DNA of 64,000 nucleotides from Ferrithrix thermotolerans DSM 19514 (lineage in GTDB: Bacteria; Actinomycetota; Acidimicrobiia; Acidimicrobiales; Acidimicrobiaceae), in NCBI RefSeq assembly GCF_900128965.1, contig NZ_FQUL01000004.1:1-64000 (forward strand), in the 5' to 3' direction. The position numbers and the translations under genes are program-made. The notes under the pieces are model-generated. The model was not told the DNA's origin, searched no databases, and worked only from the letters and a program-made list of their open reading frames with translations. How positions within the stretch are numbered: the stretch's first letter is position 1; each line of letters opens with the position of its first letter. Below are positions 2,635 through 63,640 of the stretch, piece after piece.

Positions 2635-3750
2635 TCAGCTCACGGAAACGGCTACGGTGTTGGGTACGAGTTCCACCCAGGTGCGACCGGGTGCCAAGGG
2701 GATCTTTGTACCAGAACTTAGGTAGTACTGGGTTGGCTCAGCGTAGTTTGGTCGGCTCCAGTATCCCGTGTACTCTCTTCCATTTCGAAATATCATAACT
2801 GGTCCCGTGCCGATGGTGATGGAGTGGACTCCATAGACGTTGGTGCCGGTCTCGACGTAAGGGCCAGGTATCGTTTGCACCATCTGCACTACTACGTTGG
2901 TTGCATTCTGTTGTGCCCCGCTACTAGAGAGGTCGGGCTGACTTCCATACGATCTCAGCCAGAGCTGCTTTTGTGAACTCCATGTCCAGTTGACCTGAGC
3001 AGCGTAAGAGAAGGGTACATAAACGTTCGTAACCGCTGTGCCGCCGCTTGGGACTGACTTTTGAAAGGTAAAGATCCGATTGGGGGGTGTAGTGGATGGG
3101 TCAAGAGCGTAGAGATTTTTAGTCGATGTGTACAGGTTCTCGGGGGCGGCTCTAGTAGAGATTCTGTAGTAAGAGTTTATGTATCGGAAAAAGTCTGCAT
3201 CAAAGAGATAAGGCTTTTGAGAGACTGCGTAACGATCTGGATTTATGCCACCGGCAAACGCAATAATCGGTTTACCCAAAGGCTCAATGACGTGCCAGTC
3301 TGTCCAGCGTAAGGAGCGAACCGGTCCTATAGCTGAGGCGTTGTTGCACTGAAATACTGCTATGTATCGAGTGATGCCACCTTCAACCTGGACTTCGTAA
3401 ACGATGTCGGCCTCTTGCAGGCCACTCTGGGGTCGCGCAGCAGGGTCGTTTCCTACCTTAACTGCCAAGGCGGGTCGCTGGGGTACCGTGCCGTTGGGTG
3501 CTGGGAGATCTGTCAGCGGGCAAGTGGCTGAGGTGGTTGATGCGACAGGTGCTGAGTTAGAAGACACTGATGTGGTGCTTGATGGACTTGTTGCGATCGC
3601 TGACCGAGGACTTTTCTTTGCAGTAACGTATCTGTAGCCGAAGGCGCCGACGACTACGACTGCCAGGAGTCCTGCAAGTACGCTAAGTTTCAAACTCATG
3701 GAGTTGGGACCCTTTGGATTTCTTGGCGTGGCGCTGTGACTGCCAGGCAC
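2635..3750 (-). CDS. DUF3048 (YerB-type) extracytoplasmic protein
   Basis: A 371-residue secreted or membrane-anchored protein. A hydrophobic helix (about residues 20-42) precedes a Ser/Thr-rich linker, then the DUF3048 core with conserved blocks RPALAVKVGNDPAARPQSG, EADIVYEVQVEGGITRY and IGPVRSLRWTD. The family, named from Bacillus YerB, has no settled function. The GTG start at 3748-3750 sits just behind a good GGGAGG site; an internal ATG at 3697-3699 would begin directly before the hydrophobic helix and remains possible. It is monocistronic, between its hairpin and a 270-base spacer before the divergent dehydrogenase operon. Confidence 0.82.
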   Translation of the reverse strand: MPGSHSATPRNPKGPNSMSLKLSVLAGLLAVVVVGAFGYRYVTAKKSPRSAIATSPSSTTSVSSNSAPVASTTSATCPLTDLPAPNGTVPQRPALAVKVGNDPAARPQSGLQEADIVYEVQVEGGITRYIAVFQCNNASAIGPVRSLRWTDWHVIEPLGKPIIAFAGGINPDRYAVSQKPYLFDADFFRYINSYYRISTRAAPENLYTSTKNLYALDPSTTPPNRIFTFQKSVPSGGTAVTNVYVPFSYAAQVNWTWSSQKQLWLRSYGSQPDLSSSGAQQNATNVVVQMVQTIPGPYVETGTNVYGVHSITIGTGPVMIFRNGREYTGYWSRPNYAEPTQYYLSSGTKIPLAPGRTWVELVPNTVAVSVS

Positions 3751-4023
3751 GTGACCTCCCTCAGTTCACGCGAGCGGTAAGACTCAACGTTGTTATTTGC
3801 AGATACTAGCGGTTTTGTCGGCATATTTCACAGAGACCTTAGTGCAAAGTCTTCGTGAATCTCTTGAACCATGTTTGATAAATTTAGTAATTTAGTGGTA
3901 GCGTTTCAGTGTGCTTCGATAGTTGTCAATTTAGTTTTTCTTGATTGTAACCTACGTTAAAGTATGTAAGGTTAGGTTCCTGAGAGTAGTTTTAGGCATA
4001 TTTCCGACGGGAGGGAAAGCGAT

Positions 4024-5109
4024 ATGGTGGCCAAAACTAAGTCGAATGCGAAAGGTGTTATACCTCGGTACAGCCCTATCCAGATCCTAAATTCAGAGGG
4101 AGAACTGACAGGTCCTTCGCCTGAGATCAAAGACGAGCTGTTACTTGAGATCTACAAGTACATGATTTTGGGCCGTACCTTTGATCAGCGCGCACTTTCT
4201 CTCCAACGTCAGGGAAGGATCGGAACATACGCACCTATCTCAGGACAAGAAGCAGTGCAGGTTGTGAGCGCAATGTGTCTCAAAGAGGACGACTGGATGT
4301 TTCCAACCTATCGAGACTATGCAGCTATGTATGTGCATGGGATGCCCATGAGGGATCTGTTTCTGTTCCCGATGGGGCACCCTCAAGGAGGAAGGGCGCC
4401 TCAAAACGTTAACATCTATGCAATCTCGATCTCGATAGCGACTCATCTTCCTCACGCCGTGGGGGCGGCTTGGGCGTCTAAGATCAAAGGCGAGTCAAAG
4501 GCATTCATAACCTATCACGGAGACGGTGCTACCTCGGAAGGAGACTTCCACGAGGCCATGAACTTTGCGGGGGTTTTCCAGGTTCCTTTGGTAACGATCT
4601 GCGAAAACAACGGATGGGCTATAAGCCTTCCGAGAGACCATCAGACACACTCCGAGACCATTGCCCAAAAGGGAGAAGCCTACGGTATACCTTCTTTTAT
4701 GGTCGACGGGAACGACCCGTTGGCGGTCTACAAAGTTGTAACAGAGGGCCTCGAGAGAGCCAGGGCAGGGGAGGGGCCAACGTTCATAGAGGCCGTTACC
4801 TATCGTCTTGGACCGCATACGACAGCTGACGATCCCGGCAGATACAGAAGTCAGGAAGAGCTGGATCAGATGAAGCAGAAAGATCCACTAGTGAGAACCT
4901 CGCTATATCTGCGTAAACTCAACCTGCTTAGTGAGGCAGAGGAAGCTGCTATGTGGGAGGAGGCTAAGACGGTCGTTGGCGAAGCGCTGAAGGCTGCTGA
5001 GAGTATCGCACCGCCAGAGCCAGACTTCTTCTTCCATCATGTGTACGAAGAACCTACTCCCAATATTTTGAAACAGATGCGCGAGTTCGTAGCTGAGGAG
5101 GCAGAGTAA
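4024..5109 (+). CDS. pdhA: 2-oxoacid dehydrogenase E1 alpha subunit
   Basis: A 361-residue thiamine diphosphate enzyme, the alpha half of a heterotetrameric E1 that decarboxylates pyruvate (or branched-chain 2-oxoacids) and passes the acyl group to E2. The TPP and Mg motif is clear: HGDGATSEGDFHEAMN about residue 165, ending in ENNGWAIS. The start ATG follows GGGAGG by about 8 bases. It opens a four-gene operon (E1 alpha, E1 beta, E2, E3), with the stop directly abutting the next ATG. Sequence alone does not decide pyruvate versus branched-chain substrate; the family signature and length fit both. Confidence 0.92.
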   Translation: MVAKTKSNAKGVIPRYSPIQILNSEGELTGPSPEIKDELLLEIYKYMILGRTFDQRALSLQRQGRIGTYAPISGQEAVQVVSAMCLKEDDWMFPTYRDYAAMYVHGMPMRDLFLFPMGHPQGGRAPQNVNIYAISISIATHLPHAVGAAWASKIKGESKAFITYHGDGATSEGDFHEAMNFAGVFQVPLVTICENNGWAISLPRDHQTHSETIAQKGEAYGIPSFMVDGNDPLAVYKVVTEGLERARAGEGPTFIEAVTYRLGPHTTADDPGRYRSQEELDQMKQKDPLVRTSLYLRKLNLLSEAEEAAMWEEAKTVVGEALKAAESIAPPEPDFFFHHVYEEPTPNILKQMREFVAEEAE

Positions 5110-6087
5110 ATGGCGAAACTTACTATGGTGCAGGCGATAAACCAGGCTCTAAGACAAGCTATGGAGTCAAATCCTGAGGTAATGGTTCTAGGAGAGGATG
5201 TCGGCAGGGATGGAGGCGTCTTCAGGGCTACTGAGGGTCTCATCGAAATATTTGGAAGCGAGAGAGTTGTGGACACTCCTCTGTCCGAGTCGGGTATCTT
5301 GGGAACTGCGATTGGACTTGCGGTATATGGTCTTCGTCCGGTTCCAGAGATTCAGTTTATGGGGTTTTTGTACCCGGCCTTCGATCAGCTCGTCTCGCAG
5401 GCTGCGAGAATTCGAACACGAAGTACATCCCGCTTTACCTGTCCTTTGACGCTTAGAGTTCCCTACGGAGGCAACGTCAAGTCTCCGGAGCTGCACTCCG
5501 ACTCTCTTGAAGCGCTGATTGCGCACTCACCAGGAGTCAAAGTGGTTACTCCCTCTAATCCATACGACGCGAAAGGCCTCCTTTTGGCTGCAATCATGGA
5601 TCCCGACCCGGTAGTATTTGCCGAACCCTTAAGACTTTATAGAGCTACCCGGGAGGAGGTACCAGACGCATGGTATCAGATCGAGCTGGGAAAGGCGAAG
5701 GTTGCAAGAGAAGGAAGTGACGTCACGGTAATAGCCTGGGGATCCATGGTTCCAACCTCCCTGAGAGCTGCCGATATGGCTGAAGAAGAGGGAATCTCTG
5801 TAGAGGTCGTAGATCTAAGGACTGTGTCCCCAATCGATGTGGACACGATTCTGCGTTCAGTAGCCAAGACCCATAGGGCGATAGTGGTACACGAGGCTCC
5901 AAAGACGGCGGGACTTGGTGCTGAGATAGCAGCTACCCTAGCCGAAGAAGCGATATTGGACCTTGAGGCTCCCGTGATGAGGGTTACCGGTTACGATACC
6001 CCGTTCCCCGTGCCGGCAGTAGAGCGAAGCTATGTGCCTTCAGATCGACGGGTTATGGAGTCCATTCGTGCCTGTGTAAAGTTTTGA
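5110..6087 (+). CDS. pdhB: 2-oxoacid dehydrogenase E1 beta subunit
   Basis: A 325-residue partner of the E1 alpha subunit. It has the usual transketolase-like pyrimidine domain (MVLGEDVGRDGGVFRATEGL, then GTAIGLAVYGLRPVPEIQF) and the C-terminal transketolase domain (VEVVDLRTVSPIDVDTI, then VHEAPKTAGLGAEIAA). Its ATG directly follows the alpha stop codon, consistent with translational coupling and equal amounts of both subunits. Same substrate uncertainty as the alpha subunit. Confidence 0.92.
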   Translation: MAKLTMVQAINQALRQAMESNPEVMVLGEDVGRDGGVFRATEGLIEIFGSERVVDTPLSESGILGTAIGLAVYGLRPVPEIQFMGFLYPAFDQLVSQAARIRTRSTSRFTCPLTLRVPYGGNVKSPELHSDSLEALIAHSPGVKVVTPSNPYDAKGLLLAAIMDPDPVVFAEPLRLYRATREEVPDAWYQIELGKAKVAREGSDVTVIAWGSMVPTSLRAADMAEEEGISVEVVDLRTVSPIDVDTILRSVAKTHRAIVVHEAPKTAGLGAEIAATLAEEAILDLEAPVMRVTGYDTPFPVPAVERSYVPSDRRVMESIRACVKF

Positions 6088-57535: not shown

Positions 57536-58441
57536 ATGGATTCGTTTGTAGCGGCGTCTAAGACTGTGCCTCTATCGCGCCAAGTGAGAGGTTATATAGC
57601 CCTAACGAAGCCACGTATAATTGAACTTCTTCTGATAACCACCGTGCCAGCGATGGTAGTGGCGAAGGGTGGGATCCCATCCCTGTGGAAGATGGCGATA
57701 ACGGTGGTGGGTGGTACCTTGGCTGCCGGTGGCGCCAACGCAGTCAATATGTGGTTCGATCGTGATATCGATGCAGTAATGAAGAGGACTCAGCACCGAC
57801 CGCTAGTGACTGGCGACGTGACCCCTACCGGAGCACTGGTCTTCGCCGTTGCCCTTGAGGTAGTCGCCTTTGCACTCTTAGACCTCGGTGACAACTTTCT
57901 GTCTGCTGTTCTGGCGCTTTCTGCTGCCCTTTTTTACATATTTATCTACACGTTGTGGCTCAAGAGGTCGACATCTCAAAACATCGTGATAGGTGGAGCA
58001 GCAGGTGCAGTCCCAGTCCTTGTGGGATGGGCTGCGATTCAGAACAATATTACTGTGGCATCTTTGTTGATGTTCTTGATCATCTTTCTTTGGACTCCTC
58101 CTCACTTTTGGGCCTTGGCCTTTCGTTACAAGGAGGATTACTCAAAGGCCAACGTCCCCATGCTCCCATCCGTCAAGAGCATGCGATCTACCTCTGTGCA
58201 GATAATGGCGTACACTTTGGTGCTCACAGCGGTAACCTTGGTGCTTGGTCCCATCGCACACCTTGGAGCGCTCTACGACTTGGCGGCACTAGCCCTCGGA
58301 CTTGGCTTCTTTGCATACTCCTACCGGCTCTATAAGACGGAGAGTCCAAAGGTGGCTATGCGAGTGTTTTCTTACTCGATCACTTATCTCATGCTTTTGT
58401 TTATTGCAATGGGGGTTGACGTAGTTGTCCACCACGGCTAA
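57536..58441 (+). CDS. ctaB: heme O synthase (protoheme IX farnesyltransferase)
   Basis: 301 residues, UbiA-superfamily integral membrane prenyltransferase. First Asp-rich motif NMWFDRDIDAVMKRTQHRPL; second region YTLWLKRSTSQNIVIGGAAG; then WTPPHFWALAFRYKEDY. It makes heme O, the precursor of the heme A needed by the oxidase encoded downstream. ATG 57536 with AGGG before it. It leads the oxidase locus; a heme A synthase (ctaA) is not in the window. Confidence 0.95.
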   Translation: MDSFVAASKTVPLSRQVRGYIALTKPRIIELLLITTVPAMVVAKGGIPSLWKMAITVVGGTLAAGGANAVNMWFDRDIDAVMKRTQHRPLVTGDVTPTGALVFAVALEVVAFALLDLGDNFLSAVLALSAALFYIFIYTLWLKRSTSQNIVIGGAAGAVPVLVGWAAIQNNITVASLLMFLIIFLWTPPHFWALAFRYKEDYSKANVPMLPSVKSMRSTSVQIMAYTLVLTAVTLVLGPIAHLGALYDLAALALGLGFFAYSYRLYKTESPKVAMRVFSYSITYLMLLFIAMGVDVVVHHG

Positions 58442-58457
58442 GGAGCGTCGAGACACG

Positions 58458-59078
58458 ATGAACTCAAGTGACCCCGTTTTCAAAGGTTCCGTATTGAGCT
58501 CAAAGAAACGAGCAGTTGCAGTGGTATTGCTCGTAACTTCGCTGTTTGTTGTGATCTACGCTGTATATCTATCGACGGTGGTCGTAAAGAGTAAGGGTTC
58601 GACTACCAACCTGATAGCCAGTGCATCTGGAACAACCCTCACGGGTCCGCTACAGGGGCGTATGCTTCCAAAGTTTTCACTACCTTCCCTCGGAGGAGGA
58701 TCTACTTTTCTTGGTTCCAGCTACATTGGCGGTAAACCTGCAGTGGTGAACTTCTTTGCGTCATGGTGTACATCTTGTCAGGCAGAGATGGCAACCCTTA
58801 CCCAAGCCTCTAAGACGTACGGTCAGAAGGTGACTTTTCTAGGTGTAGATGAGAACGATACCGCATCTGCTGCTACAAAGTTTCTTGCTAAGTACGGTGT
58901 TCGGTACCCAATTGCCTACGACCCAAAGGTATCGTTGGCTGGCCCATTTCAACTTGTGGGTCTTCCGACCACTTTATTTGTTGAGCCAGACGGAAGGATC
59001 TATAGAGAGGTTCTGGGAACAATGAGTTCATCTTTACTATCCAAGAATCTGAGAGCTTTAGAAGAGAAGGCGAAGTGA
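58458..59078 (+). CDS. TlpA/ResA-like membrane-anchored thioredoxin
   Basis: 206 residues. One N-terminal anchor helix (VAVVLLVTSLFVVIYAVYL), then a thioredoxin fold facing out, with redox Cys pair in FFASWCTSCQAEM and cis-Pro in GLPTTLFV. Such proteins reduce disulfides of apocytochromes or deliver reductant for copper-site assembly in oxidases; the location directly before oxidase genes supports the latter (inference). ATG 58458 is preferred over the in-frame GTG inside ctaB. Confidence 0.88.
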   Translation: MNSSDPVFKGSVLSSKKRAVAVVLLVTSLFVVIYAVYLSTVVVKSKGSTTNLIASASGTTLTGPLQGRMLPKFSLPSLGGGSTFLGSSYIGGKPAVVNFFASWCTSCQAEMATLTQASKTYGQKVTFLGVDENDTASAATKFLAKYGVRYPIAYDPKVSLAGPFQLVGLPTTLFVEPDGRIYREVLGTMSSSLLSKNLRALEEKAK

Positions 59079-59415: not shown

Positions 59416-60096
59416 TTGTCGAAAGGAGCACGAGCGGGACTCGTCATGGTAGCCTTCGCAGCCGCTATAGGAATTATCCTATTCGGTGTATTTGGCTACC
59501 TTAGGAGTAGCCCGCCGGTCGTGTCAGCGGTTCCTTCTGCTACGCAGCCAAACACGGTTAACGTGACGATGCAGGTAGATGGTGCCGTTGGTGTTGGACC
59601 TCACCCGACTTGGGTGGGTTATTGGATTCAGGGTGCAAATGGGCAGTACAAGCAGACAACGCTGCTCAAGGTGCCTGTAAACACATATGTTCATGTAAAG
59701 CTATATGAGTACGACAGCGGTGGTCCACTCCGTAACCCGTATTGGGGTAAGGAGATAGGTACTGCTGGGAACGTGATCGTTGTGAACGGTCAACCGGTCT
59801 CTCTGGTTAACTCTTACGCTGGAAACGGTGTAGCTCACAACTTCGATGTTCCTGGCCTTGGCGTAAATGTAGCCCTTCCGGGGGTCAACGGAAATGCCAA
59901 GAACTTCTGTAACGTAGGTCCTTGTAATCCAAGCGAGGCGCATAACCTGATTCAGTTCACCTTTTACTCGGGTAAGACGGTGCACAACTATCGTTGGCAG
60001 TGCTTTATACCTTGTGGTCTTGGTTATCTGACCGGTAACGGTGGACCTATGCAATCACTTGGTTACATGGCTGGATTTGTTCAGGTGGTGAAGTAA
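59416..60096 (+). CDS. membrane-anchored cupredoxin-like protein of the oxidase operon
   Basis: 226 residues. One N-terminal helix (GLVMVAFAAAIGIILFGVFGYL) anchors a soluble outer domain of strand-rich composition. Possible copper ligands: His141 in GVAHNFDVPGLG, Cys196 and Cys200 in WQCFIPCG, and Met212 or Met218 in GGPMQSLGYM. The Cys-x3-Cys spacing recalls the CuA loop of subunit II, though the CuA His is absent. A second Cys pair (FCNVGPC) may be a disulfide. TTG start; the stop overlaps the subunit II start (TAATG). It may feed electrons to the oxidase. Confidence 0.72.
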   Translation: MSKGARAGLVMVAFAAAIGIILFGVFGYLRSSPPVVSAVPSATQPNTVNVTMQVDGAVGVGPHPTWVGYWIQGANGQYKQTTLLKVPVNTYVHVKLYEYDSGGPLRNPYWGKEIGTAGNVIVVNGQPVSLVNSYAGNGVAHNFDVPGLGVNVALPGVNGNAKNFCNVGPCNPSEAHNLIQFTFYSGKTVHNYRWQCFIPCGLGYLTGNGGPMQSLGYMAGFVQVVK

Positions 60097-60983
60097 TGGC
60101 TCTAAAGACATCAGAGGAGAGTGGATCACCGGCTGCGATTGCTAGAAAGCACGGTTCCAGGATCGTTGCGATCTGGTTTATCTTGTCGTTGATCATTGAT
60201 TTGGTCGTGTGGTTCGTATGGGGGCCACATATGCCGCCTGGAGATATGACAACAACGGCAGCAGGACAGCAGTTTGACTTCAAGGTTCTAACTGTGATGT
60301 CTGTCCCAGTGTTGTTAATGGTCTGGGTTTACGGCGCTTACGTCATTATCAATTTCCGTGATCGTGGCGACCATGCGGACGGCTACTACGTGAAAGGAAA
60401 CCGTAAGTCTCAGGGACTTTGGTATGCCGCCACTGCGGTGCTTGTTCTGTTCCTAGCCGGATTTGGTACCTACGAGCTTGTTGTTCCTGCTGGTGCTGGT
60501 GTGGGAGAAGGCCCTTCGCCTATTTGGAAGCCAGCGAGCACGGCGCATATGCTTCAGGTTCAAGTCATAGCCCAACAGTGGCGTTTCACCTACAGGTGGC
60601 CACAGTTCGGAGGAATGGAGACGACGTCTTTGGTGCTTCCGGTGAACACAGAGATCCAGTTCAACGTGACTTCATTGGACGTCATTCACGACTTCTGGGC
60701 ATATCAGCTAGGTGTTAAAGCTGACGCAAACCCAGAGGACAATAACGTGGCCTATACGAAGACTCAGCAGACTGGACGCTTCGTAGTCCGCTGCGATGAG
60801 CTATGTGGTATCTGGCACGGTGCGATGTATAACTACGGAAACGTTGTTTCGCAAAACGCGTTCTATCAGTGGGCTACCAACATGGAGGCTCAAAACGCAT
60901 CTTTGACGAAGCTGCTTCCTAAGTATTCGACCGTATACGTACCAAATGATAACGTGGCCGGAGGTCAGTACTTCAATGGCTAG
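60096..60983 (+). CDS. ctaC: cytochrome c oxidase subunit II
   Basis: 295 residues. Two transmembrane helices (about 22-43 and 64-86), an extra hydrophobic stretch (110-130), then the cupredoxin domain with a full CuA set: His198 (DVIHDFW), Cys233, Glu235, Cys237, His241 and Met244 (CDELCGIWHGAM). It takes electrons from the donor and passes them to heme a. No C-terminal cytochrome c domain. ATG overlaps the preceding cupredoxin-like gene. Confidence 0.94.
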   Translation: MALKTSEESGSPAAIARKHGSRIVAIWFILSLIIDLVVWFVWGPHMPPGDMTTTAAGQQFDFKVLTVMSVPVLLMVWVYGAYVIINFRDRGDHADGYYVKGNRKSQGLWYAATAVLVLFLAGFGTYELVVPAGAGVGEGPSPIWKPASTAHMLQVQVIAQQWRFTYRWPQFGGMETTSLVLPVNTEIQFNVTSLDVIHDFWAYQLGVKADANPEDNNVAYTKTQQTGRFVVRCDELCGIWHGAMYNYGNVVSQNAFYQWATNMEAQNASLTKLLPKYSTVYVPNDNVAGGQYFNG

Positions 60984-61058: not shown

Positions 61059-62990
61059 ATGGCGATTGATATGTCGCAGTCGACTGGCGTTGGCCAGTCA
61101 GGCGGAGCCGGCGGATCAAGCGCAGCCAGATGGTTTGCCCGTGGGAACATCTTTACAGCTACCTTATTTGGTGCTGGAGGGTGGTTCTTTGGACACTGGT
61201 GGGGTAATGTCATAGCAGGTCATTACACGTCAGTGCAAAACAGCGGTACAAATGACGTATCGTGGCTGCTTGGTGCGATCTTCGCTGTTGTTGCGTGGTT
61301 TATTGGTCTCGGTGCTCTCAATCACCCCATTGCTAAGCTCTGGGGTGGGGAGGCTCCGATGGCGGAGAAGAAGCAGAAGTACTCGATTATGGAGTATTTC
61401 TCTTATTCGACGGATCACAAGGTTGTGGGTATTCAGTACCTGTTTGCTATGCTAATGTACTTCTTCGTAGCAGGGTTGTTGGCTCTTGGGATAAGGACAG
61501 AGCTCCTATCTCCGACCTATCACATCTGGGGTCCTGACACCTACATCGAGATTGTTGGCGAGCATGGAACCATGATGATGATGATGATGACCTCAATTAT
61601 CATGGGTCCTTTCGGGAACTTCTTGGTGCCACTTATGATCGGTTCAAAGAGGATGGCGTTCCCAAGGCTTGAGGCTGCGTCATTTTGGTTCACGGTTCCC
61701 GCCTTCTTCTTCTTGCTCTCCGCTCTGTGGCAGGGAGGATTCCAGTCGGGCTGGACTGGGTATGCGCCTCTCTCCATCCAAGGTGGAGTGGGTCAGGATG
61801 CTTATCTATTTAGCTTCACCCTTATGGCGTTGTCGATGCTTGCGGCCTCCACGAACATGGTGGCAACGATCATTAACTACCGTGCACCAGGTATGAGGTG
61901 GAGTCGGTTGTCGGTGCTCACTTGGGGTATGATTACGACAGCCTTCACTATGATCCTCTCAGTTCCGGTTCTCATCGATGGTCTTTATGTCATGGGTATG
62001 GACCGAGCGGTTCAGACTTCGATGTTGTATGGTCAGCATGGTGGATCACCGTTCCTTTGGGAAAACCTGTTCTGGTTCTTTGGACACCCCGAGGTCTATT
62101 TGCTGGCACTGCCTGGGTTTGCAATCACCACCGAGATTCTCCCGGTGTTTGCCAGAAAGCCCGTCTTTGCCCTCAAGACCTCAATTGCTGGAATGATCGG
62201 TGTGGCGACATTAAGCTTCTTTGTGTGGCAACACCACCTGTTCAACTCAGGTATGAACCCGGACATGAGACCATTGTTCATGCTCTCAACCGAGTTGATC
62301 TCCATTCCGACTGGTTTCCTCTATCTAGTAGGTATGGGAACGGTTTGGAGAGGGCGTCTGCGTTTCAACGTCCCAATGCTGTTCATGTTGGCAGTTTTCT
62401 TCAACTTCCTTTGGGGTGGCATAACCGGTGTCTATAACTCAGACGTTCCTGTGGACGCTTTGATTCACGGAAGCTTCTTTGTTATGGCCCACTTCCACTT
62501 TACGATTATGGGTCAGTTGATGTTCGCTGTGTTTGGAGCGATCTACTACTACACTCCTCTGTTCTTCGGTATCAAGTTGTCAGAGAAGCTAGGAAAGATT
62601 CACTTCTGGACGATGTTCGTGGCTTTCAACTCGACCTTCCTACCCCTGTTTATTGTTGGATGGTTGGGGCAACCAAGGAGGGTTTTCGAGTATGCTGCTA
62701 GGTTGCAGACGCTGAACCAGTGGGTATCCATCTCGGCCTATGTCCTTGGTCTGTCCCTAGCGTTCTTCGTGGTCACCTTCATATGGCAGCTCGTAGTTAC
62801 ACGTCCCAAGAGCGAACCCAACCCTTGGGACTCTCGTGGACTTGAGTGGCAGGTTGGTATTCCGGTACCCAAGGACAACTTTGATAGGATCCCCGTGATC
62901 TTGTCGTCGCCCTATGAGTATGGGAATCCGAACGCTGGACCTATGGCGGATCTGTCGCCAACGGTTGCCTCTGTTGGGAGTGATGCGTAG
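61059..62990 (+). CDS. ctaD: cytochrome c oxidase subunit I, divergent
   Basis: 643 residues. An N-terminal extension of about 100 residues holds two extra hydrophobic segments (31-55, 68-88) before the conserved core. Metal ligands are all present: His169 and His480 for heme a, His478 for heme a3, and His343, His392 and His393 for CuB, with the cross-link Tyr347 in GHPEVY and the Glu345 proton residue. However, the D-channel segment reads IGSKRMAFPRLEAASFW (usual Asp is Arg198, usual Asn-Asn are Glu-Ala), and the K-channel IPTGxK reads IPTGFL (Leu421). A run of six Met (172-177) lies in the heme a helix. The stop overlaps ctaE. Confidence 0.93.
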   Translation: MAIDMSQSTGVGQSGGAGGSSAARWFARGNIFTATLFGAGGWFFGHWWGNVIAGHYTSVQNSGTNDVSWLLGAIFAVVAWFIGLGALNHPIAKLWGGEAPMAEKKQKYSIMEYFSYSTDHKVVGIQYLFAMLMYFFVAGLLALGIRTELLSPTYHIWGPDTYIEIVGEHGTMMMMMMTSIIMGPFGNFLVPLMIGSKRMAFPRLEAASFWFTVPAFFFLLSALWQGGFQSGWTGYAPLSIQGGVGQDAYLFSFTLMALSMLAASTNMVATIINYRAPGMRWSRLSVLTWGMITTAFTMILSVPVLIDGLYVMGMDRAVQTSMLYGQHGGSPFLWENLFWFFGHPEVYLLALPGFAITTEILPVFARKPVFALKTSIAGMIGVATLSFFVWQHHLFNSGMNPDMRPLFMLSTELISIPTGFLYLVGMGTVWRGRLRFNVPMLFMLAVFFNFLWGGITGVYNSDVPVDALIHGSFFVMAHFHFTIMGQLMFAVFGAIYYYTPLFFGIKLSEKLGKIHFWTMFVAFNSTFLPLFIVGWLGQPRRVFEYAARLQTLNQWVSISAYVLGLSLAFFVVTFIWQLVVTRPKSEPNPWDSRGLEWQVGIPVPKDNFDRIPVILSSPYEYGNPNAGPMADLSPTVASVGSDA

Positions 62991-63640
62991 TGGCTTCGAA
63001 TGTTGATGAGAGGCCAGTCATAGATGAGGAAGCGTACTACCATGATGCTTCTTTAGGTGCGACGTGGACCGCATCTCGCACTGCAGTAGCCATGGTTGCG
63101 ACGTTGTATGGAGGCATCGCCTTCGCCTTCTTCTACCTTAGGTCATTGAACTCTAACGGTCAGTGGAATCCGAATCATATAACCGCATCGACAATCATTG
63201 GTACCACGATCTTGGTGCTGATGGTCGTGGCGGCTCTTGTGAATTACTTCGGTGCGCGTAGGCTGAGGCGTGGAATGGTGGTTGACTGGCAGGTCGCTGC
63301 TGCCTTCACTGCACTGTTCGTGTTGGTTGCAGGCGGTATGCAGATCTGGGAGTTGACCAGGCTGCCGTTTCAGCCCTCTTCGTTCGGATACGCAAGCGTA
63401 TTCGTTGCGTTCGGTCCAGTAAACGCCTTTGCTATTTTGCTGAGTGCTTATTGGGCCGAGACGGCAGTAATGCAGTCTGTTCGAATCAAGAAACTGGCCA
63501 TTACCGATGGAGGTCTTGGTCTGTCAAGTCTTCCAGTCGCTGAGAAGTTCAGGGCCAATGTAGATGGTCTTTCGTTCTTCCTGAACGGTATGGCTCTAAT
63601 TACCATTGTGTTCTACGTCATCTTTTACGTGATAGCGTAG
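62990..63640 (+). CDS. ctaE: cytochrome c oxidase subunit III-like protein
   Basis: 216 residues with five predicted helices, the length of bacterial five-helix subunit III. QIWELTRLPFQPSSFGYASVFV corresponds to the helix with the lipid-binding and loading Glu region, and AYWAETAV to the last part. Weakly conserved but placed exactly where subunit III belongs. GTG start overlaps the ctaD stop by one base. Confidence 0.82.
   Translation: MASNVDERPVIDEEAYYHDASLGATWTASRTAVAMVATLYGGIAFAFFYLRSLNSNGQWNPNHITASTIIGTTILVLMVVAALVNYFGARRLRRGMVVDWQVAAAFTALFVLVAGGMQIWELTRLPFQPSSFGYASVFVAFGPVNAFAILLSAYWAETAVMQSVRIKKLAITDGGLGLSSLPVAEKFRANVDGLSFFLNGMALITIVFYVIFYVIA

Follow-up and report, generated by a model that had tools for sequence, protein, structure and literature searches.

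A family A heme-copper oxidase of Ferrithrix thermotolerans with a charge-inverted D-channel mouth and no K-channel lysine

The oxidase subunit I gene (COX1) at positions 61059..62990 of the window, the 64,000-nucleotide stretch of contig NZ_FQUL01000004.1 of Ferrithrix thermotolerans DSM 19514 that was analysed here, encodes what its sequence identifies as a family A heme-copper oxygen reductase. Its K-channel looks gone. Judging from residue conservation, its D-channel is re-mouthed and not abandoned, with K197/R198 as a basic pair on the outside and an invariant Glu205 at the Asn gate. The explanation favoured here, to which we give just short of an even chance, is that protons enter through the D-channel by way of this relocated acid and that pumping is weak or absent.

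Trees of 52 and 100 COX1 sequences place the protein within A-type COX1, and the top Foldseek match of its AlphaFold model is 2gsm (target TM 0.83). The profile scores are 512 bits for TIGR02891 (CtaD), below the equivalog cut-off of 671, and 62 bits for SoxB; these scores and the tree position rule out a B-family, ba3-like identity. The model also has two additional N-terminal transmembrane (TM) helices at residues 31-53 and 66-84, both with high pLDDT. When about 85,000 species genomes were scanned, the best 80 loci (53-94% identity) came from Acidithrix ferrooxidans, Ferrimicrobium, Acidiferrimicrobium, many Acidimicrobiaceae MAGs from acid mines and peat, Trebonia and other Streptosporangiaceae. 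Residues were counted in 91 distinct COX1 relatives of approximately 53-94% identity and, for subunit II, in 89 sequences. Positions were mapped onto subunit I of R. sphaeroides (Rs; 1M56), and the features concerned are as follows.

61059..62990, + strand: COX1 (subunit I), ATG start, 643 aa; PF00115, 395 bits
61650..61652, + strand: R198 codon, equivalent to Rs D132 at the D-channel mouth; R/K in 90/91 relatives, G in one
61671..61673, + strand: E205 codon, equivalent to Rs N139, candidate relocated proton-accepting acid; Glu in 91/91
62091..62099, + strand: codons of E345 (Rs E286), V346 and Y347 (Rs Y288); E345 and Y347 in 91/91
62292..62303, + strand: E412-S415 codons (Rs M353-A356), helix-VIII Glu and Ser; both in 78/78 clade sequences
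62319..62321, + strand: L421 codon, equivalent to Rs K362, K-channel lysine lost; I/L/V in 91/91

The original prediction that the D-channel Asp has become Arg198 and the K-channel Lys Leu421 holds in this mapping, numbering included: Rs D132 corresponds to R198, N139 to E205, N140 to A206 and K362 to L421. In alignments with mycobacterial structures, which run without gaps, the D-mouth segment reads IGSKRMAFPRLEAA against IGAPDVAFPRLNAF, and IPTGFL stands against VPTGIK. A shift that hides the true channel residues is ruled out for K362, as helix VIII has no nearby Lys; near the D132 site, the sole acidic residue is E205, seven residues further on. The retention of every metal ligand was also correctly read, with heme a ligands H169/H480, heme a3 ligand H478 and CuB ligands H343/H392/H393 all in place, together with E345 and the cross-link Tyr347 of the HPEVY motif, the Glu of which (E278 in P. 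denitrificans (Pd), E286 in Rs) marks A1 oxidases. Of the change of Asn-Asn to Glu-Ala, only Glu205 is unusual. Ala206 is ordinary, since canonical actinobacterial oxidases, including the second copy in the same genome (L001), have Asn-Ala.

The D-channel marks of Pd are Asp124 and Asn131 (PMC3084760), and both are replaced here, by R198 and E205. The set of K-channel marks (Lys354, Thr351, Ser291 and Tyr280 in Pd numbering) is incomplete, with the Thr and Tyr kept and Thr at the Ser291 site. Among the 91 relatives, Lys occurs at position 421 in 0/91 and the K-channel Ser299 site varies, while the subunit II column at the channel entrance (Rs E101) is Gln in 79/89 and Glu in 4/89 sequences; the canonical copy has Glu. 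It is the joint loss or variability of K362, S299 and the subunit II Glu that makes the K-channel look gone. The helix-VIII residues E412 (Rs 353), S415 (Rs 356) and T418 are invariant in the same 91 sequences. Between close relatives dN is about 0.04 and dS about 2 or saturated, which points to strong purifying selection on the new residues. Because the same residues recur in 91 relatives with such low dN against saturated dS, the pattern is not one of decay: degeneration to a pseudogene is ruled out, and so is drift, or a sequencing or assembly error, in one genome, the chance of which we regard as negligible.

The inner D-channel is largely preserved, with Y33 in 99% of relatives, N121 in 81/91 (otherwise Gln or Gly) and N207 and E286 each in 91/91. 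The ba3 and cbb3 oxidases, with their inactive D-pathway, have other residues at the inner positions (PMC12901375 Table 2), whereas here Y33, N121, N207 and E286 are kept, so the channel does not appear to have been abandoned. The Thermus ba3 oxidase (B family) resembles the window COX1 in its Arg at the D132 site and in lacking a Lys at K362, but it has Ile for E286 and F24, V80, R100, M106, I162 and I235 at inner D-channel sites, having lost an inner channel that the window COX1 keeps (PMC12901375 Table 2). The proposal that protons take other routes or that pumping is reduced or absent is sharpened on both sides, with neither chosen: the K-channel does look lost, and loss of the D-channel is not borne out.

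The trees also suggest an order of events. In a clade of 78 sequences, K362 is absent and Glu and Ser occupy positions 353 and 356 in 78/78; its members include A2-like (YSHPAVY) and A1-like (HPEVY) oxidases that still carry D132 and N139. Nested within it, with a support of 100, are 50 sequences in which D132 is replaced by R/K (one by G) and N139 by Glu (in three by Gln). The two changes are always paired, no clade sequence having one alone. K362 would thus have been lost once, with gain of Glu and Ser on helix VIII, and the charge of the D-mouth inverted later inside the clade. Independent losses of K362 are seen in other COX1 lineages, to Gln in L113 and L140 (G041) and to Leu in L129 (G044:C90). 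L113 is the plasmid oxidase of Sulfitobacter pontiacus (2923-5490), which has Ser at N139 and Glu at both N207 and 353.

The constancy of E412 and S415 throughout the K362-less clade could mean that E412-S415-T418 forms an alternative K-channel for all protons, the D-channel surviving as a structural relic as in ba3. The Sulfitobacter oxidase, in which a different branch replaced the Lys by Gln and placed a Glu at the same position, would fit such an arrangement, as would the Arg that ba3 likewise has at the D132 site. L129 and L140, however, lack K362 and have no Glu at 353, and the inner D-channel residues that ba3 and cbb3 replaced are conserved here, so that this explanation seems improbable. 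A correspondence of S415 with ba3 Ser309 is ruled out by the published equivalence table (PMC12901375).

According to the favoured explanation, entry through the re-mouthed D-channel, cytoplasmic protons would pass the basic mouth (K197/R198) to E205 and continue through N187, Y127, S208/S259 and N266 to E345 (E286), feeding the binuclear centre. The local helix-VIII set E412-S415-T418 would replace the role of the K-channel near Tyr347. Given the acid at the gate and the missing Lys, pumping would probably be weak or absent, and about one charge would be moved per electron, through chemical proton uptake only.

An acid at the Asn gate fits reduced pumping. It is the classic decoupling substitution at the N139 site (PMC12901375; title of 3ehb); in the P. 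denitrificans N131D structure (3ehb) E278 is flipped (PMC8111224), and N98D (bovine numbering) keeps O2 reduction, loses pumping and partly rescues the K319M enzyme (PMC12901375). The window variant shares this gate acid with the laboratory mutants N139D (Rs), N131D (Pd, 3ehb) and K319M/N98D (bovine numbering), and with the last also the loss of the Lys. Unlike them, it is natural and fixed, has Glu instead of Asp, adds D132 to Arg and carries the helix-VIII Glu and Ser. The R. sphaeroides double mutant D132N/N139D is reported to pump again, so that moving the acid does not necessarily disable the pump; set against the decoupling by an acid at N139, this leaves pumping undecidable from sequence alone.

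The recoupled mutant lends some plausibility to a second explanation, by which R198 and E205 form a second-site pair, E205 takes the role of D132 and pumping is normal or nearly so. The replacements of D132 by R/K and N139 by E/Q never occur apart within the clade, and the inner channel and E286 are conserved. Both changes have one origin, however, and their constant pairing therefore adds no independent proof of coupling. The K-channel is gone as well, Glu differs from Asp and Arg from Asn, and the energy span of an Fe(II) donor is too small for full pumping. We consider restored coupling unlikely, if less so than an alternative K-channel.

The proton exit side is changed as well. At the Mg site, Gly takes the place of the Asp (Rs D412) in 91/91 relatives (window 62463-62471, COX1 residues 469-471), and Rs D407 is Asn in 49/91. 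The latter residue is presumably the Asp near the heme a3 propionate. That Asp is a further decoupling site in mutants (PMC4321873).

These exit-side replacements would also suit a mouth sealed by an R198-E205 salt bridge, with protons drawn from the periplasm and no energy conserved, the enzyme acting as an electron or oxygen sink. D132N enzymes are indeed slow, and protons leak into them from the P side (PMC4321873). But an iron oxidiser needs its oxidase for charge separation, a sealed mouth leaves the conservation of the N121-N207-E286 chain unexplained, and a canonical oxidase is kept separately in the same genome. This reading is accordingly given little credence, below that of either other route.

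The genome has two COX1 genes, in different operons. The second copy, L001, is canonical, with GAPDMAFPRLNA and VPTGIK and with D132, N139, K362 and the subunit II E101 all present. It adjoins QcrB, QcrA, QcrC, COX3 and CtaF, an operon that, by its gene content, encodes a quinol-linked bcc:aa3 supercomplex; its position with QcrABC suggests that labour is split between the two oxidases. Canonical actinobacterial aa3 oxidases (the second copy, L001/L145; Mycobacterium 6adq and 8hcr) share with the window COX1 the family A core, metal ligands, E286 and Y288 at about 43% identity. They differ from it in D132, N139, K362 and subunit II E101, in adjoining QcrABC and CtaF, and in having no extra TM helices. 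Other Acidimicrobiia carry a divergent COX1 homologue in which the first CuB His is Arg: L133 (G049:C44:63200-65900), L134 (G044:C59) and L139 (G039:C1), with the motif HGRPEVY in L133 and FGRPEIL in L139. In G049 and G044 this copy lies about 5 kb from the canonical COX1. The homologue looks metal-poor and is possibly a structural oxidase paralogue.

The variant COX1 lies in an operon with its own maturation and electron-transfer candidates, as follows.

57536..58441, + strand: CtaB, heme o synthase; NF003349, 389 bits, above cut-off
58425..59078, + strand: ResA/TlpA-like thioredoxin, possible copper-site or heme maturation factor; PF00578, PF08534
59416..60096, + strand: membrane-anchored AcoP-like cupredoxin, probable electron-transfer or stabilising partner
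60096..60983, + strand: subunit II (COX2) with CuA motif; PF00116
60411-60413, + strand: subunit II Q106 codon, replacing the K-channel entrance Glu (Rs E101)
62990..63640, + strand: putative divergent subunit III, by conserved position and sequence

The gene order cupredoxin-II-I-III is found in 68/80 loci. The protein at the subunit III position has no Pfam or NCBIfam match and is conserved in about 89 homologues; it is a candidate for a new, highly divergent COX3 family. The cupredoxin profile matches AcoP of Acidithiobacillus ferrooxidans with weak E values of 0.006-0.02, and its model, an N-terminal helix followed by a beta fold, has rusticyanin as a weak top Foldseek match. The copper ligands of AcoP are His85 and Cys159-x6-His166-x4-Met171 (PMC4059628). 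H141 and C196 of the cupredoxin align with H85 and C159, but there is no His at C+7, for which reason it is labelled AcoP-like and not AcoP; instead, it has an invariant C196-x3-C200 and M212. Four Cys (C165, C170, C196 and C200), His141 and Met212 are invariant in this protein, and its usual ligand loop contains no His, so the metal site would be unusual.

The rus operon of A. ferrooxidans comprises cyc2, cyc1, hyp (acoP), coxB, coxA, coxC, coxD and rus (PMC2621215); its AcoP protein associates with the oxidase, which it maintains in an active state under acidic conditions (PMC4059628). The window operon likewise has a cupredoxin gene directly before coxB-coxA-coxC, but no adjoining cyc1, cyc2 or rusticyanin gene. 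Two extra N-terminal TM helices characterise the A. ferrooxidans aa3 and, among acidophilic iron oxidisers, the '2TM' COX1 group (Degli Esposti et al. 2021, PMC8239418), and hosts of that kind, e.g. Acidithrix, Ferrimicrobium and Acidimicrobium, are a further common trait. The resemblance to AcoP-coxBAC is one of gene order and fold. In the F. thermotolerans genome, neither the rusticyanin nor the sulfocyanin model has a match, and QcrC is the only c-type cytochrome of family PF13442 found. Electrons might reach the variant oxidase from a high-potential periplasmic donor via the membrane-anchored cupredoxin, apart from the quinol-linked bcc:aa3. Against this part of the favoured explanation stands the missing AcoP His ligand position, and the cupredoxin remains a candidate for the donor role.

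The O2/H2O couple lies at about 1.1 V at pH 2, and the proton-motive force is taken as 0.2-0.25 V. The Fe(II)/Fe(III) potential is +0.77 V (PMC4059628), which would leave approximately 0.33 V per electron; against such a proton-motive force, one charge would be affordable and two would not. This estimate accords with the Ingledew model, which has the oxidase do no more than consume cytoplasmic protons (PMC2754497). Many peat and soil members, however, may not use a +0.77 V donor, which weighs against the favoured explanation. The same holds for the idea that the variant suits a cell in a very large pH gradient: it fits the hosts Acidithrix, Ferrimicrobium and Acidimicrobium, but the variant is shared by Streptosporangiaceae of peat and soil, Trebonia among them, so that extreme acid is an incomplete explanation.

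Loss of the K-channel and variant D-channels within family A have already been published, as has the 2TM COX1 group of iron oxidisers (PMC8239418). In a literature search of limited scope, neither the fixed D132R/N139E pair nor the linked E353/S356 pair was described. The comparison of sequences raises the speculative and on balance doubtful idea of a natural decoupled class, with a charge-inverted D-mouth, an acceptor at the Asn gate, a helix-VIII Glu/Ser pair for the K-channel and a pump constitutively off. If it exists, such a class, fixed in acidophilic actinobacteria, could draw on a high-potential donor while facing a large proton-motive force. How pumped protons are kept apart from chemical ones has long been a question, mostly studied in mutants of two or three enzymes. 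Evolution has here fixed equivalents of several such mutations in order, K362 first and then D132/N139, and the intermediates survive as oxidases with an intact D-channel and no K, with R/Q and with R/E. H+/e- ratios along this series would directly test the roles of the mouth residues and the Lys, and would bear on whether iron-oxidising acidophiles gave up pumping for lack of redox span.
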